Source: Methanomassiliicoccales archaeon
GTDB lineage: Archaea; Thermoplasmatota; Thermoplasmata; Methanomassiliicoccales; JACIVX01
DNA: 64,000 bases
NCBI GenBank assembly: GCA_038850735.1
Contig: JAWCLO010000004.1
Location: 62,001 to 126,000 of the forward strand
Reading direction: 5' to 3'
Numbering within the stretch: position 1 is the first letter of the stretch; every line of letters starts with the position of its first letter. Position numbers and translations under genes: made by a program. Of this stretch, positions 4,681 through 14,257 are shown in pieces. The notes under the pieces were generated by a model, which was given only the letters and a program-made list of their open reading frames with translations, ran no database searches and was not told the origin of the DNA.

Positions 4681-5394
4681 TTAGGACTTCGATCGTGATT
4701 TTGGAATTGGACCTGCTCCAAGCTTTTCAAGTGCTCTTAATATACCATCTAATTTACTAAACGGAATACCAACATACATTTCTTCGGGAGCAATGTCAGT
4801 GCTTCTTCGACATCCAAAGCATCCAAGCGAGATGTTGATGTTTTCTGTAATGTAGGGAATAATCGTCGAATCAACACAAGTTGCTTGCATGGTTGCCGTA
4901 GTAATAGTCACGCGACCGCCAATTTCATAGGTCGCGGCTGCAGGTAAGATCCAGTAAATTTGTTCAGGCGTGCCAACTACAACCACCACATCGGGTTTGA
5001 ATCTTGCCTTACTCAACGGAGCAACTACAGTCCCAATAATATCCCCCAATGGCAAAGTCGGTCTTGCGTCAATCATCTTCTTTGCTGCTTCAGCACATGC
5101 GAACATTCCCAAATTTGCATGGAATTCGCCGGAAGCAACTTTCTCGGGAGTTGGTAGAATCCCAAGAGCAGACGCACCAACAGGGCAAGCATGCTTTGAT
5201 GCCGGTATCCAGAATTCCTCACCTTTTCTTGCCCTCATTATCGACTGGCAGTGCCTTAAGCTAGATGCAACCTCCACATACCCTTCGGGAGGAGATTCTC
5301 CCTTCTTCACAAGTTTCACCGCAACCGGTTCGTACTTGAGGCCAAGAATTTCTACAATCTTCTTTGATGCTTCAGGACAATTCATAAAATGCAC
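4681..5394 (-). CDS. DUF169 family protein
   Basis: A 237-residue protein of the DUF169 family, common in methanogens and other anaerobes and of unknown function. It begins with the family's usual pattern (a target of 'EPVAVKL' type) and carries several conserved cysteines, including HCQS, HACPVG, FACAEA and the pair CFGCRR near the C-terminus. These could bind metal or a cluster, but this is not established. A TATA element (TTTATATATTA) about 28 bp upstream of the ATG suggests a leaderless transcript. It is divergent from the MtrA-MtrH pair; shared regulation is possible. Confidence 0.8.
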   Translation of the reverse strand: MHFMNCPEASKKIVEILGLKYEPVAVKLVKKGESPPEGYVEVASSLRHCQSIMRARKGEEFWIPASKHACPVGASALGILPTPEKVASGEFHANLGMFACAEAAKKMIDARPTLPLGDIIGTVVAPLSKARFKPDVVVVVGTPEQIYWILPAAATYEIGGRVTITTATMQATCVDSTIIPYITENINISLGCFGCRRSTDIAPEEMYVGIPFSKLDGILRALEKLGAGPIPKSRSKS

Positions 5395-5674: not shown

Positions 5675-6460
5675 TTGTTGCAAGACCCTGAAAACCTGAA
5701 AAGCGTGTGGCCGATTTTGGACGGAGACTATGAGCTCGGCGACGGTGATTCGCCGGTAGCAATTGCGATTATTGGAAGAGGACGTGTTGAGCTTTCACCA
5801 AAACAATACTGTATTAAGGGCACTGTAAAAACCGAAAACATTGGAATCGAGAAAATCATCGGAAACATCGTCAGCAATTCTACAATACGATTTTTGATTG
5901 TCTGCGGGAAGGAAGAATTCGGTCACTTTCCTGGCGATGCATTGATTAGTTTGTGGAAGAATGGAGTCGATGAGCGAATGCGCATTGTCGGAACGAGAGC
6001 TGCAGTTCCTTACTTGTGTAACGTTTCTCCCGAAGCAATTGAACGGTTCAGAAAGCAAGTTGAATTGATTGATCTCGTCTATCCCAAAGATGTTGAGGAA
6101 ATCATTGCATACGACCCCGTGTATCATTTCGATGATGAAAGAATAAGTGCGTTGATTAAGGTCATTGAGGAATGTGTAGCGCGCAATCCAGGTCCCTTTG
6201 AAGGACAACCTATTATTATCAGCCATAATGCACTCAAATTGGAAGGAAGTTTTATTGGAAGGTCTCTAAATCTTGCTGCCGATAAATTTGCATCACATAT
6301 GCTTCGGCTCTCGAGTGAAAAACTCAGCACAACAGCTTCATTGGCCATTGTCTCCGAGGAATTTGGCGTAATATTTGATGTGATTGATCATGAGATCTTC
6401 GTGGTTCCATCAATATCGCTGGTTACGAAGATTAGAGCATATCTAACTGGAGGGGTCTGA
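5675..6460 (+). CDS. MtrA-like corrinoid protein, soluble (methyltransferase subunit A homologue)
   Basis: Residues about 12-160 match MtrA, the corrinoid-binding subunit of tetrahydromethanopterin:CoM methyltransferase: WPxLxGDY, GTVKTENIGIEKI and a glycine-histidine at residues 83-84, matching the His84 that coordinates cobalt in MtrA. The last 100 residues differ and contain no transmembrane helix, whereas MtrA in the full complex is membrane-anchored. The start is probably TTG at 5675; no ribosome-binding site is visible, and an upstream AAAATTATTA box fits a leaderless message. mtrH follows after one base. Genes for MtrB-G are not nearby, so this is a cytosolic MtrAH module rather than the sodium-pumping complex. 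Confidence 0.85.
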   Translation: MLQDPENLKSVWPILDGDYELGDGDSPVAIAIIGRGRVELSPKQYCIKGTVKTENIGIEKIIGNIVSNSTIRFLIVCGKEEFGHFPGDALISLWKNGVDERMRIVGTRAAVPYLCNVSPEAIERFRKQVELIDLVYPKDVEEIIAYDPVYHFDDERISALIKVIEECVARNPGPFEGQPIIISHNALKLEGSFIGRSLNLAADKFASHMLRLSSEKLSTTASLAIVSEEFGVIFDVIDHEIFVVPSISLVTKIRAYLTGGV

Positions 6461-6461
6461 C

Positions 6462-7352
6462 TTGTTTAAATTTCAAAACGAGCAAAAAGTTTTCAATATC
6501 GGCGGGGTGAATTTTGGAGGACAACCTGGAGAAAGACGCACTGTCCTTATTGGTTCTCTTTTTTATCCTGGTCACAGTATTGTAAAGAATAGGATGCATG
6601 GCGAAATTGACATGGTTAGGCTTGAAGAAATCATTAGTGCACATGATGAGATGATGGCGTGCACGAAATGTAATGCGGCTTTAATGATCTATGCTGAAAC
6701 CACAGATTCCATGTATTCTTACATCAAACTTTTACCTGAACTAACTGAACTTCCCCTGTTCATCGATTCGCCTAGCTCCGAGGTTAAACTGGCCGGCATA
6801 AGGAGAGCAATCGAAACAGGTCTCGGTGACAAAGTAGTTTATAATACCCTAAGCCTAGGGAGTTCTCAAGGGGAACTAGAAGCACTCGCACAAATGAATG
6901 TTAAATCAGCTATGCTTCTTGCATTTAATCCTCGAAATCTCGGAGTTAAAGGGAAGATATACCTCCTCGAAAATGGCGGAGGTATTTTGTCAAATGGCCT
7001 TATCGATATTGCGAAGAATTACGGGATCGAAAAACCGCTAATTGATGTCGCTGTAATGTCATTTGATCAGAACGCAGGTTCTGCTCTTCGAGCAATAGTC
7101 GTTTCAAAGGCAAAGTGGGGATTACCTACGGGTTGTGCTGTTCATAATGCTGTGGAATCATGGTCTTTGCTTGCAAAACTGAAAGAAAGAGATTTGCGTG
7201 TTTACCGGGAAGTCGATACTGCTTCACCTATAATTCCAATTATGGCAGGGGCCGACTTCGTGGTATACGGTCCCATTGAGTATTACCGCTCCGTATTCCC
7301 GATTGCCACCTTTGCCGACGAATTAATAAGACAAGCTGTTCAGGATATTTGA
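6462..7352 (+). CDS. MtrH-like methyltransferase (methyl-pterin:corrinoid type)
   Basis: A 296-residue TIM-barrel methyltransferase of the MtrH family, which moves a methyl group from a pterin to Co(I) corrinoid. The N-terminal FNIGGVNFGGQPGE and GSLFYPGHSIV and the C-terminal GCAVHNAVESW and IIPIMAGADFVVYGPIE are characteristic. The TTG start is set by a strong GGAGGGG six bases upstream and is coupled to the MtrA-like gene one base before it. The natural donor may be methyl-H4MPT, or another methylated compound if the cell lacks that pathway. The gene is convergent with the MBL/RamA operon. Confidence 0.88.
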   Translation: MFKFQNEQKVFNIGGVNFGGQPGERRTVLIGSLFYPGHSIVKNRMHGEIDMVRLEEIISAHDEMMACTKCNAALMIYAETTDSMYSYIKLLPELTELPLFIDSPSSEVKLAGIRRAIETGLGDKVVYNTLSLGSSQGELEALAQMNVKSAMLLAFNPRNLGVKGKIYLLENGGGILSNGLIDIAKNYGIEKPLIDVAVMSFDQNAGSALRAIVVSKAKWGLPTGCAVHNAVESWSLLAKLKERDLRVYREVDTASPIIPIMAGADFVVYGPIEYYRSVFPIATFADELIRQAVQDI

Positions 7353-7427: not shown

Positions 7428-8285
7428 TTACAGGATTATTTCGCTTCCTACAGACACCAGCTCAAAGCCTGTGAACCTATCAGATATGAGTTTCATGGCT
7501 TCAAACCCTGTGCAGTGCATCGGAGCTACTCGTTCAACGCCGAGCGACTTGAGATGATCCATGGTCTTCAGAAGTCTCTCAGTGTCACCAGAATATAGAT
7601 GGAATCCACCAGCTATCATGAATATCTTCGAACCGGTTATTTTCTTCAAATGATGAACGATATTGACTATTCCGATATGCCCGCATCCTACGATGAGGAT
7701 CAATCCTTTCTTCGAGTTCATCAAAAGAACTTGCTCATCAACAAATGTATCGGGAACTAGCACACCGTTCTCTTCAACCATATAATTGCCAAGTTGCTCA
7801 AACGGGAATAGACGTGGTATTTCCCCGGACGTGCGTATACCCTCAAAGATCTCTCTCGGCTCAGAATCTAGGATCATATTTGCAGAACTGAGTGCCTCTA
7901 AAATCTTACTTGGAGGCGAGAGCTCGGTTGTCTTTTCGTTTACAAGAGAAAAGCGACGGCGAGAAAGCGACTTAGGGTGCGTAAAAATCGGAGTTTTCGC
8001 TGTAATGAATGGTAAAAGACCGCCGACATGATCGTAATGGCCATGCGTTACAAATACCGCATCGATCTTCTGGGGGGATAACTCAAGCAATTCCAAATTG
8101 TGAAGAAGAACTTCTTCAGAAGCTCCTGCGTCTACGAGAATCCTCCGGCCATTTTCAGTCTCTACCAACATGGCAAAGCCATGCTCCGAAAGGAAATGCT
8201 TTGCCGGGGAATCCAGCCTCCTCACCAACCCTGAGGGCGAATAAGGAGGGGCAGATGTATTATCAACAACAGAAATCAGCCGCAC
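7428..8285 (-). CDS. Metallo-beta-lactamase fold hydrolase
   Basis: The 285-residue protein has the metal-binding motif THGHYDHVGG (His81, His83, Asp85, His86) plus later GCGH and PMHCTG segments, resembling the MJ0301-like MBL group often annotated as involved in dihydropterin/beta-RFAP chemistry. That annotation is not secure for this subgroup. The GTG start overlaps the end of the RamA-like gene by ten bases, so they are one operon and a role in corrinoid or pterin methyl metabolism is plausible. Confidence 0.8.
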   Translation of the reverse strand: MRLISVVDNTSAPPYSPSGLVRRLDSPAKHFLSEHGFAMLVETENGRRILVDAGASEEVLLHNLELLELSPQKIDAVFVTHGHYDHVGGLLPFITAKTPIFTHPKSLSRRRFSLVNEKTTELSPPSKILEALSSANMILDSEPREIFEGIRTSGEIPRLFPFEQLGNYMVEENGVLVPDTFVDEQVLLMNSKKGLILIVGCGHIGIVNIVHHLKKITGSKIFMIAGGFHLYSGDTERLLKTMDHLKSLGVERVAPMHCTGFEAMKLISDRFTGFELVSVGSEIIL

Positions 8286-9937
8286 TTACCGTCCAACTCC
8301 TCTCTTTTGACAATTTTGAGCTCATTAAATCTGAGAATATTATCTGGGCATACCTGCTCACAGTTCTTGCAAGCTGTCCCCAGGCAATATTCTGTAGCTA
8401 TCCTAATCCTGAATTCCTTCCGTCCGATCTTCTCAACCGTCAAAGCCCTCTCAGGACATTCCATCTCGCACCTCTTACAACCCTTGCAACCTGGGAAGGA
8501 ACCTAGCAAGTACACGCCTACGTGATCTAGAGTCTTCAGACCTCTCGATCCTACATTTGGTATGTCCCTGTCAACAATTCTCAGCGTTTTTTCCGGCCTC
8601 ACGATGTTTGGTAAAGGTGACAATCCTGCGAGCTTCAACATCTTATTGTAATAATCCATCGGCATTCCCTCTAGCCAATATGCAACCTCATTGATGTATA
8701 TGTCCTCGAATATCTTTGATGTCGCAAACATGATATGCTTTGAAGCTATCGAATCAGCAACGGACTGCATCATATCAAGGACGGATGGGTCAACCAGCAA
8801 ATCATAAGCCATCATCAAGGATGTATTGCCGACTTGGACAGTCTTCTTAACAATTCGAGGGACTAGACCACATGTTTGCGCCTTAATCGGATCAACATAC
8901 GTACCCGATGCACCGGCAAGATACATCGTTTCTATATCTTCATCCCTTATCCCAACTTCTTCGATCAGAGTCTTGTGGCCAGCGCGGATAGCTCCCATAG
9001 CTTTGCCAGCTTCCCGCAAGTCTTTCTCATTAAACGTAATATCGTCCTGAAAATGAAGTGTCTTATCCTCGGTTGCGATGCCTGGAAGCTTGATTAGGCC
9101 TGTTTCAAGACCGAGCGCGACTGCTGCCACAACACCAGTTCCTGTGATTCCTCTTGCCTCAATATCGTCTAGCTTCTTAGTCTCACCAGTTCTAGGATCG
9201 ATCAAAGAGGCCTTTCTGGGACCGAGGCGATCGTCAAGAACAAAATTCGACCAGTAGCCGTCGTTTTCAATGTTGAGATCCGAAATTGCATAGGGGGCAG
9301 CAAGCATCCCATGAGAAATATGTTGACCTTCCATTGCTGGTCCAGCAGCGGCACTGCCACTGAACAATTCCCCATCGTGATAGAGTCCCATCTCAGCATT
9401 TGTTCCATAATCAGTAACCATGCATGTTTCCTTTTTCTCAAGCATTTGAGACTTGATGATCATGGCAAGTGCATCCGCACCAACTTCATGCCTAATGGCA
9501 GGCGGTATTGCAACTTCCGTTTCAGGATCGACTGAGCTCAATCCTATTGTCCCAGCTGTTGTCACGTGCCCTCTTCGGCTGGGTCTCGTTACATTTAAAC
9601 GCTTCAAGATCGATTCGCCAGCATAGGCGAGATCCCGCACTTCAATGCCTTCAAACATAGATAGTTGAGCGGGGTTTCCACAAACTGCAATTCTCTTTAT
9701 CTCTTTACAATTAACACCATGAAGCGCAATAAGCTTATCAACGGTTTCAAGAATGATTCTATGACCAACCTCTGAACCATTTTCAATCCAGAAATGCAAA
9801 TGATCCATGATATTTGCGCCCGGAAGCGGATGCCTCATAGTGATTGCTGTTGAGATTATCTTGCCCCTATTTGAAAGATCGACCAGGTGAGTTCTATAGC
9901 CGCTCGTTCCTAAATCAAGTGCTATGCCGTATGCCAT
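8276..9937 (-). CDS. RamA-like corrinoid-protein reductive activase
   Basis: The family couples ATP hydrolysis to one-electron reduction of inactive Co(II) corrinoid proteins. The N-terminal two-thirds is an ASKHA fold with GIALDLGTSGYRTH, VTDYGTNAEMGL and a YLAGASGTY segment. The C-terminus holds two [4Fe-4S] sites, CKGCKRCEMECP and CLGTACKNCEQVCP, as in RamA of Methanosarcina. I choose ATG 9937, eight bases after GGTGG, over an upstream in-frame GTG at 9949. A TATA box (CTTTAAATA, around 9969-9978) is 30-35 bp upstream. It forms an operon with the MBL gene and probably reactivates the corrinoid protein at 13613 and/or the MtrA-like protein. Confidence 0.9.
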   Translation of the reverse strand: MAYGIALDLGTSGYRTHLVDLSNRGKIISTAITMRHPLPGANIMDHLHFWIENGSEVGHRIILETVDKLIALHGVNCKEIKRIAVCGNPAQLSMFEGIEVRDLAYAGESILKRLNVTRPSRRGHVTTAGTIGLSSVDPETEVAIPPAIRHEVGADALAMIIKSQMLEKKETCMVTDYGTNAEMGLYHDGELFSGSAAAGPAMEGQHISHGMLAAPYAISDLNIENDGYWSNFVLDDRLGPRKASLIDPRTGETKKLDDIEARGITGTGVVAAVALGLETGLIKLPGIATEDKTLHFQDDITFNEKDLREAGKAMGAIRAGHKTLIEEVGIRDEDIETMYLAGASGTYVDPIKAQTCGLVPRIVKKTVQVGNTSLMMAYDLLVDPSVLDMMQSVADSIASKHIMFATSKIFEDIYINEVAYWLEGMPMDYYNKMLKLAGLSPLPNIVRPEKTLRIVDRDIPNVGSRGLKTLDHVGVYLLGSFPGCKGCKRCEMECPERALTVEKIGRKEFRIRIATEYCLGTACKNCEQVCPDNILRFNELKIVKREELDGKCG

Positions 9938-9949
9938 GGAGGTTACCAC

Positions 9950-10387: not shown

Positions 10388-11395
10388 TTATCCTTTTACC
10401 GCCTTGACAAGTGCCTGTATATTTTCCTTCGGCACTCTAGCAGCAAGACCGCAGCCGGGCGCAACCAAGTGGAAACCTGATTTTGCGACTCTCTTTGCAT
10501 CCTTCATGACATCATCTGGCGTACCCTGCAAGAGCGGCTTTACCACACCAACATTTCCAATTAGTGCCACTCTATTGTTAACGATTTCGACTGCCTTCTC
10601 AGGAACTACCTTTTCTTCAATGCTCAATCCATCCACACCTGTGGCCATCATATGCTCGAGTAATATCGTTGTATCTCCACAGATATGCAGAACCCTCTTT
10701 GCATCAACATTTGAGAATGCTTGCTTTATGTACGGCGCTGCAAATTCATCGAACATCTCACCAGAAAGCATGTCTGTAGATGCAGATGGGTCGCTCATCA
10801 CGATGACATCCGCACCAGCGTCCGCAATCGCCTTCACATACTGGTGCTCGATTTCGGCAGCAATCTTCAGAAACTTGTGCACGGCATCAGGATCAGTAAT
10901 AATCCAGAGCAATATGTTCTCCGTTCCAACGAGGTGACCGGCAATGGTAAATGGGCCCGTTGTACCAACAACCACAGGCAATTTTCCTTCAACCTTTTTC
11001 TTTAGAATCTTCGTGGCCTCGACAACAATCTTCGCACGGCCGCGGCCAGCGAAATCCTTTGGAATCTCAACCTCGCTTGAGGCTTCGTATGGGTGTTTCT
11101 TAACCATTGGCGTCCTGTCTATTTTACCAAGATCTACAGTTGCTCCCATGATCTCCGCTTCAACCGTGAGACAAAAAGGCAATCGAGCTGATTCAAGTCC
11201 AAAGACCTTGTTAGCCGCCATCGCCAGTGTTGCCATTTTCTCAGGATCTGTATGCGCGTCTGGCCAGTAGACACCTACAGCTTCCATTTGATCCACAGTC
11301 GCACTCTGTGTGAAGCAGACAACAGGAGGTCTGTCTAGTGGCTTGCGATTCAAAGCTGCTATTACCCGATCCCTTGGATTCATTCCATCGTTCAC
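10388..11395 (-). CDS. MtbA/MtaA-type methylcobamide:coenzyme M methyltransferase
   Basis: A 335-residue member of the UroD-like family that transfers the methyl group from a methylated corrinoid protein to coenzyme M. The zinc ligands are in place: His237, Cys239 (LHICGDT) and Cys315 (APGCGLA), the spacing of MtaA/MtbA. The GTG start follows GGAGGGA by five bases. It has its own terminator-like hairpin. In sequence alone I cannot separate MtaA (methanol) from MtbA (methylamines). With the corrinoid protein and RamA-like activator it completes a methyl-CoM-forming branch. Confidence 0.88.
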   Translation of the reverse strand: MNDGMNPRDRVIAALNRKPLDRPPVVCFTQSATVDQMEAVGVYWPDAHTDPEKMATLAMAANKVFGLESARLPFCLTVEAEIMGATVDLGKIDRTPMVKKHPYEASSEVEIPKDFAGRGRAKIVVEATKILKKKVEGKLPVVVGTTGPFTIAGHLVGTENILLWIITDPDAVHKFLKIAAEIEHQYVKAIADAGADVIVMSDPSASTDMLSGEMFDEFAAPYIKQAFSNVDAKRVLHICGDTTILLEHMMATGVDGLSIEEKVVPEKAVEIVNNRVALIGNVGVVKPLLQGTPDDVMKDAKRVAKSGFHLVAPGCGLAARVPKENIQALVKAVKG

Positions 11396-13612: not shown

Positions 13613-14257
13613 TTACTTCTTTTTCAGAAGCTCAGCTGCTATCTTTACAGCTTCAACGGCGTCGTATCCCCACGCATCAGCGCCGATTTGCGCTGCAAAT
13701 TCCTTGGAAGTAGCTCCCCCTCCTATCATTGTTTTTACAGGACCCTTTAAACCAGCCTCTTTCAGCATTCTTTCTAGTTCTCTCATTCCCGCTAGCGTCG
13801 GGGTCATAAGGGTCGATGTTGCGAGTATATCGGCCTTTACCTCTTGTACTTTTTCAATGTACTTCTTCAAAGGAACGTCTCTTCCCATATCAAACATCGT
13901 GTTTCCCGCTCCAGTCAGCATGGCCTTCACGATGTTCTTTCCTATATCATGAACATCTCCCTCGACGACGCCGATAACGATCTTACCAGCCGCACCAGTT
14001 GCTTCTACTTTGAGCTTTGGCAAAACAACGTCTAATGCCGCATACATTGCCTGGGCAGACAAAAGAACTTGAGGCAGGAAGTATTCTTTCTTTTCGTATT
14101 TTTCACCAACAACGGCCATTCCCTTGCTTAGACCATCAAAGATAATCGTTTGTGGTAGAATTCCAGCATTGAGTGCCTGCTCTGCTAGCGGCTTGGCCTC
14201 TTTGATTTTTCCCTTCACCACGACTTCGGCTAGCTTATCCAGAATCTCATTACTCAT
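13613..14257 (-). CDS. Methyltransferase corrinoid protein (MtaC/MtbC/MttC type)
   Basis: A 214-residue two-domain corrinoid protein. Residues 1-90 form the helical B12-binding cap domain; residues 91-214 the Rossmann-like cobalamin domain with the DVHDIGKN motif, His103 being the lower axial ligand. It carries the methyl group between a substrate methyltransferase and the CoM methyltransferase. The start has a GGAGGGA ribosome-binding site. No substrate methyltransferase is adjacent, so the class (methanol, methylamine, methylthiol, methoxy) is undetermined. It is flanked by a palindromic promoter and a strong terminator, so it seems monocistronic and probably highly expressed. Confidence 0.93.
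   Translation of the reverse strand: MSNEILDKLAEVVVKGKIKEAKPLAEQALNAGILPQTIIFDGLSKGMAVVGEKYEKKEYFLPQVLLSAQAMYAALDVVLPKLKVEATGAAGKIVIGVVEGDVHDIGKNIVKAMLTGAGNTMFDMGRDVPLKKYIEKVQEVKADILATSTLMTPTLAGMRELERMLKEAGLKGPVKTMIGGGATSKEFAAQIGADAWGYDAVEAVKIAAELLKKK

Follow-up and report, generated by a model that had tools for sequence, protein, structure and literature searches.

The Na+-pumping Mtr complex (MtrA–H; M. marburgensis 8q3v, M. mazei 9qts) combines a cobamide domain marked by His84 and Glu54 in MtrA with the pterin-binding residues of MtrH. The MtrH dimer of this complex is reported to be bound and held in place by the N-terminal segment of MtrB (PMC12774963). Homologues of MtrA and MtrH also occur outside the mtr operon as the mtxX-linked MtxA–MtxH of some methanogens (PMC3087415). 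In addition, MtgA of Desulfitobacterium hafniense (6sk4), which transfers a methyl group from a methylcorrinoid to tetrahydrofolate (THF), is a barrel of the MtrH family and shares the four pterin residues of MtrH. Within the order Methanomassiliicoccales itself, mtrAH of MALP was reported in 2018, its 'unusual C-terminal extension' was noted and methyl-THF:CoM transfer was proposed (PMC6147122), and mtrA/mtrH were described in 2024 in most environmental clades of the order (PMC10804542).

Here, we analyze a window of 64,000 nucleotides from a Methanomassiliicoccales archaeon that encodes such a pair. The soluble mtrA–mtrH pair itself is not new, as it has been published for the order with nearly the same proposal; the published and present pairs share the order, the lack of MtrB–G, the extended MtrA and the proposed methyl-THF:CoM transfer. 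The present analysis adds an MtrB-like end of MtrA, the loss of the H4MPT patch of MtrH and the coupling of the pair to CODH/ACS across 147 genomes.

Architecture and distribution of the MtrA–MtrH pair

The mtrA gene (5675..6460, forward strand; TTG start) encodes a corrinoid protein of 261 residues that matches PF04208 with 163 bits (E 5.9e-48) and TIGR01111 with 156 bits, below the cut-off of 249. The mtrH gene (6462..7352, forward strand) encodes a TIM-barrel pterin methyltransferase of 296 residues that matches PF02007 with 269 bits (cut-off 22.8; E 5.9e-80; profile positions 1–293 of 299) and TIGR01114 with 267.4 bits, just below the cut-off of 271.4. Both genes are present as a single copy in the genome (1.66 Mb, 98% complete). 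The TGA stop codon of mtrA at 6458–6460 is separated by one base from the TTG start of mtrH at 6462, and GGAGG sits just 5' of this start. mtrA and mtrH are translationally coupled, and in every same-strand pair inspected in the order the stop and start codons lie only a few bases apart. Internal-looking TAG/TGA stops in MtrH might suggest readthrough in a pyrrolysine-using order; however, the codons in question are ordinary terminal stops, and readthrough was rejected.

The residues required of a corrinoid protein and of a pterin methyltransferase are kept, in agreement with the earlier note on this DNA. His84 of MtrA, the predicted lower cobalt ligand (codon 5924..5926, forward strand), falls precisely on residue 84 and shows no variation across 34 aligned relatives. 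K52, T53, E54, N55, G57 and N64, which complete the cobamide site as defined from PMC4915002, are conserved in the same relatives; a loss of corrinoid binding, which the note had held to count against its proposal, is thus not predicted from these residues. No transmembrane helix is evident in MtrA by hydropathy or in the AlphaFold2 model (mean pLDDT 87), which places helices and short strands where the membrane helix is expected. The peak Kyte-Doolittle value over 19 residues is 1.66 for MtrA of the window, with a median of 1.11 for the order, compared with 1.85–2.43 for four canonical MtrA proteins. A fold search with full-length MtrA retrieves known MtrA only, and the nearest named relatives are Methanomassiliicoccales MAGs (LCB019-061 at 71% identity). 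MtrH is likewise intact and retains all four residues that PMC10998594 lists for the pterin head group (D102, N128, D195 and N229).

The note had also reported that MtrB–G are absent near the pair and had regarded a complete Mtr operon elsewhere as contrary evidence. No such operon appeared. In a genome-wide search for the subunits MtrE and MtrD, the controls were positive, MtrE was not found in any of the 147 Methanomassiliicoccales genomes, including that of the window, and MtrD was not found in the window genome, a draft of 24 contigs in which absences rest on family searches. As separate genes, MtrB–G are indeed absent nearby, but MtrA ends in a fused MtrB-like piece, which the note had not remarked on. 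Compared with the Na+-pumping complex, the pair shares the cobamide domain and the MtrH pterin residues but contains no MtrE/MtrD, no membrane helix in MtrA and only remnants of a basic patch in MtrH.

The pair recurs within the order. mtrH is present in 42 of the 147 genomes, and a quick maximum-likelihood tree groups the MtrH proteins of the order into one clade (SH-aLRT 98), into which neither the MtrH proteins encoded in complete Mtr operons nor the soluble ones of other Thermoplasmata fall. Families f1, f3 and f46 largely share the gene order mcrB-tfuA-ycaO-lrp-DUF169-mtrA-mtrH-MBL-ramA-mtaA-hydantoinase-corrinoid protein. Given the single MtrH clade and the shared gene order, the mtrA–mtrH pair is a conserved feature of Methanomassiliicoccales. 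The window begins within mcrB, and mcrD-, mcrG- and mcrA-like ORFs, recognized by eye, follow mcrB just outside the window. The DUF169 (COG2043) gene (4681-5394) is kept next to mtrA in most loci of the order.

Several variants were observed. A second form of MtrA (L098:9630-10388, L100:2744-4317, L101:6645-8230) keeps His84 and replaces Glu54 with Ala (RSAN for KTEN). A divergent MtrH lies opposite this form, on the other strand, in L100 and L101. In genus g9, MtrA seems decayed in L097 (8865-9635) or broken in L096, where the match is limited to an 81-residue C-terminal open frame, and MtrH is intact in both. Six Methanomicrobiales loci (L139, L149, L170, L171, L186 and L190) contain two tandem mtrA genes ahead of mtrH. 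The complete-looking Mtr region of L160, on a contig labelled Candidatus Nitrosotalea, is near-identical to the ANME type and is probably a binning error.

The MtrA extension and its likeness to the MtrB N-terminus

What is the role of the extension that replaces the membrane helix in MtrA? The extension, which is carried by the MtrA proteins of the order (34 aligned), spans approximately residues 140–261 (6092..6457, forward strand) and is modeled with moderate confidence as helices and three short strands. The MtrA profile of the order covers the extension in members of the order and, in the sample examined, only in Methanomassiliicoccales; other MtrA proteins match to approximately position 135 and at most to 198. 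Two further leads were discarded. Matches of ANME MtrA to residue 247 failed to hold with the profile, and an origin from DUF4346, hinted at by Thermoplasmata operons, was rejected as PF14251 matches separate proteins of those operons and not the extension.

A Foldseek search with the extension alone returned no significant row. Its third row was 9qtp chain E, which is M. mazei MtrB (0.8 Å over 22 columns, E 2.5), and this row led to a sequence comparison of the extension with MtrB. In hhalign, whose E-values are single-comparison values, the extension matches the MtrB profile at 91% over 24 columns, approximately MtrB residues 1–23. The matching strand-turn motif, a proposed MtrH dock, occupies MtrA residues 221–244 (6335..6406, forward strand). 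None of 200 column shuffles matches (highest 5.7%), and the controls against MtrB yield less than 1% for the reversed extension, less than 1% for the MtrA core and 9% for MtrH; the MtrG control yields 0.1%. Furthermore, when an HMM of the MtrB N-terminus was run over 4760 ORFs from the loci of the order, the top 28 ranks were all MtrA C-termini, although these matches are individually weak (E 0.003–1.6) and mutually related. The window copy is among the weakest (4.1 bits), and no single MtrA tail sequence produced a match reaching the Pfam MtrB model. Among 4253 ORFs of other loci, the best non-MtrB match lies at the C-terminal end of an MtrA from the Asgard locus L188 (10.1 bits, E 0.15). This MtrA (Ca. 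Sifarchaeum, L188:1198-2961) carries the MtrB-like end PEFNINLDPYTGLV and is flanked by two MtrH genes.

The MtrH side of the putative contact is also kept in part. In canonical operons, the reported salt bridge between MtrB position 9 and MtrH position 211 covaries, with Lys-Ala in 9 and acid-Arg/Lys in 18 of 20. The partner of MtrB Glu9, Arg211 in M. mazei, corresponds to Arg210 in MtrH of the window (codon 7089..7091, forward strand), and the equivalent position is Arg in 29 and Lys in 2 of the 31 MtrH proteins of the order. An acid at MtrB position 9 is combined with Arg/Lys at MtrH 211 in 22 of 28 MtrA–MtrH pairs of the order. A second bridge, reported between MtrB position 5 and MtrH position 5, is not retained in the order.

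The MtrA tail thus seems to reproduce the MtrB hook that keeps MtrH in place in the complete complex, and probably serves to hold MtrA on the MtrH dimer. The MtrH dock of the Na+-pumping complex would then be shared, but in an MtrB-like form fused to the end of MtrA. The new element is this sequence match between the end of the MtrA extension and the MtrB N-terminus; the extension noted in 2018 had lacked an explanation, and no earlier description of an MtrB-like MtrA hook was found in the literature searched, the coverage of which is incomplete.

The pterin and the methyl partners of the pair

A three-residue basic patch of MtrH was proposed to hold the tail of H4MPT (PMC12774963). All canonical MtrH sequences without gaps carry K/R at these positions. 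In MtrH of the order, positions 1 and 3 are nearly always altered, and position 2 is K/R in 13 of 31 proteins. The Asgard MtrH of L188, which belongs to a similarly adjacent stand-alone pair, differs in that it keeps the patch (K, K, K), making an H4MPT-type pterin likely there, and contains Leu rather than Arg at 211. At residue 75, which lines the pocket, the present MtrH has Met, where canonical MtrH has Gln and both MtgA and the soluble MtrH of Thermoplasmata have Asp; the pocket therefore follows neither the canonical nor the MtgA type and is not of a plain folate type.

beta-RFAP synthase is required for H4MPT synthesis. No beta-RFAP synthase was found above the cut-off among the 147 genomes of the order, and methenyl-H4MPT cyclohydrolase (Mch) is absent from the window genome. 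These absences make methyl-H4MPT, which the note had proposed to test as a methyl donor, unlikely. Taken with the four retained pterin residues and the mostly lost basic patch, they point to methyl-THF as the likely pterin substrate. The window genome contains the genes of a complete tetrahydrofolate Wood-Ljungdahl pathway (FolD, Fhs, MetV-like, MetF, AcsE and CODH/ACS). FolD and Fhs lie side by side in L109:530-11446, followed by HdrA-like, MetV-like, MetF and AcsE genes; FolD and MetV were assigned by eye, and AcsE, the methyl-THF:corrinoid/FeS protein methyltransferase, matches NF005719 with 313 bits (cut-off 259). A fused CODH-ACS, CdhD, CdhE and an AcsV-like activator are encoded on another contig. 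Of the 42 genomes of the order that contain mtrH, 41 also contain CODH/ACS, the lone exception being 73% complete, and 34 contain MTHFR, both counts being uncorrected for kinship.

Three features of these contigs are of separate note. In L108:4412-10787, a bacterial-type CODH and ACS are fused in a 1358-residue ORF of an archaeon, followed by CdhD and CdhE. The methyl branch in L109 is acetogen-like, in a methanogen. A ribose-1,5-bisphosphate isomerase-like ORF lies beside a RuBisCO-like ORF in L109:15130-17305 (by eye), a possible AMP pathway.

Which proteins would perform the second half-reaction? Given that the locus of the pair contains no MtrCDE, the neighboring MtaA and RamA are the obvious candidates. 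The mtaA/cmuA-type methylcobamide:CoM methyltransferase gene (10388..11395, reverse strand) matches TIGR01463 with 347 bits (cut-off 235) and the MtaA model NF040654 with 381 bits, just below 400. The ramA-like gene (8276..9949, reverse strand) encodes a corrinoid reductive activase and candidate reactivator (TIGR04270, 725 bits; cut-off 500). MtaA and RamA adjoin mtrAH across families f1, f3 and f46, but families f2, f4 and f47 lack MtaA next to the pair. MtaA is thus put forward only tentatively as the coenzyme M partner of MtrA. A possible methyl source in the methylotrophic cluster is an MttC/MtbC-like corrinoid protein (13613..14257, reverse strand; PF02607 and PF02310), which matches TIGR02370 with 204 bits (cut-off 215).

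Proposed function and its alternatives

We propose, with a probability of roughly 0.55, that MtrA and MtrH form a membrane-free methyltransferase unit that unites tail docking, THF exchange and a link to coenzyme M through MtaA. The tail would fasten MtrA to the MtrH dimer at the site taken by MtrB in the complete complex and, once docked, would keep the B12 domain near MtrH. MtrH would swap the methyl group between the MtrA cobamide and tetrahydrofolate, rather than H4MPT, and the neighboring MtaA would swap it between MtrA and coenzyme M, with RamA reactivating the oxidized cobamide. Without pumping sodium, the unit would thereby connect the methyl-CoM pool of methanogenesis with the folate-based Wood-Ljungdahl pathway (AcsE, CODH/ACS). 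We tentatively favor the direction from methyl-CoM or a substrate methyl group to methyl-THF for acetyl-CoA synthesis; the dependence on CODH/ACS is compatible both with methyl assimilation into acetyl-CoA and with the aceticlastic route suggested for MALP. A cytosolic pterin-corrinoid shuttle without sodium pumping, as the note had put it, stays the best reading in the absence of MtrE/MtrD, but probably with a pterin other than the H4MPT it had named.

Soluble MtrA–MtrH pairs of other Thermoplasmata (L164, L179, L181 and f24) are also adjacent and have mostly lost the basic patch, but their MtrA is approximately 190 residues long without the extension and their MtrH forms a separate clade. 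An MTHFR gene lies 5' of soluble mtrA–mtrH in L164:6030-9732 and similarly in L179:6030-8471, and a MesA-like methionine synthase and a PterinBD-DUF4346 protein are encoded downstream in L164 and L181:1282-4034. This gene order suggests a folate-to-methionine route through MtrA in other Thermoplasmata.

As a short beta hairpin, the tail motif could resemble MtrB by chance or through convergence, with no bearing on MtrH binding. The match of just 24 columns, the insignificant structural match and the divergent window copy would agree with this explanation, which is nonetheless unlikely in view of the failed shuffles, the top 28 ranks, the negative MtrG control, the restriction of the match to the MtrH-binding segment of MtrB and the retained salt-bridge partner. 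Still less probable, indeed the least probable of the alternatives, is a true methyl-H4MPT enzyme that uses H4MPT or a related pterin imported or made via an unrecognized route: over its whole sequence, MtrH scores higher against canonical MtrH (196 bits, M. mazei) than against MtgA (143 bits), but beta-RFAP synthase and Mch are missing and the patch that the Asgard MtrH keeps is mostly lost.

Two other explanations retain a soluble pair with different partners. MtrA could be a substrate-specific corrinoid protein loaded by a dedicated donor enzyme rather than coenzyme M, with MtrH passing the methyl group to tetrahydrofolate like MtgA, the nearest non-Mtr relative with a solved structure, which moves a corrinoid-protein methyl group to folate in glycine-betaine metabolism. 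The location of the pair among methylotrophy genes is in keeping with such a role. However, no MtxB-type substrate methyltransferase is found among the neighbors annotated at 0-16 kb, MtrH scores 175 bits against an NF047990 cut-off of 550, and the nearby MttC-like protein already fills the corrinoid role; moreover, MtgA works with an MttC/MtgC-type corrinoid protein rather than MtrA and differs at residue 75. We consider this role improbable, and likewise find no mtxX among the neighbors scanned that would ally the pair with MtxA–MtxH. A transfer of methyl groups from methyl-THF to methionine, with MtrA donating to a core methionine synthase, is more doubtful still. The MTHFR and/or MesA-like genes near soluble mtrA–mtrH in L164, L179 and L181 speak for it, but MesA was sought and not found in the window genome (the sole model match is MtaA, 28 bits), no methionine gene was recognized near the pair, and Methanomassiliicoccales are reported to use MesB, which is predicted to draw its methyl group from the CODH/ACS corrinoid protein (PMC7857596).

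Returning to the membrane-free unit linking coenzyme M and folate, we advance a wider evolutionary reading with less confidence. The N-terminal hook of MtrB may have been fused to MtrA of soluble pairs more than once, replacing the membrane stalk and yielding a cytosolic methyltransferase that tethers itself. The Methanomassiliicoccales unit may also have exchanged H4MPT for tetrahydrofolate, thereby linking a folate Wood-Ljungdahl pathway of bacterial type with methyl-CoM without sodium pumping. If true, the pair would be a natural minimal and uncoupled form of the energy-coupling Mtr, workable without membranes, in which the pterin half-reaction would be isolated. It would account for the MtrA extension noted in 2018 and would show how a methyl-reducing methanogen could channel methyl groups into acetyl-CoA, or methyl-folate into methane.
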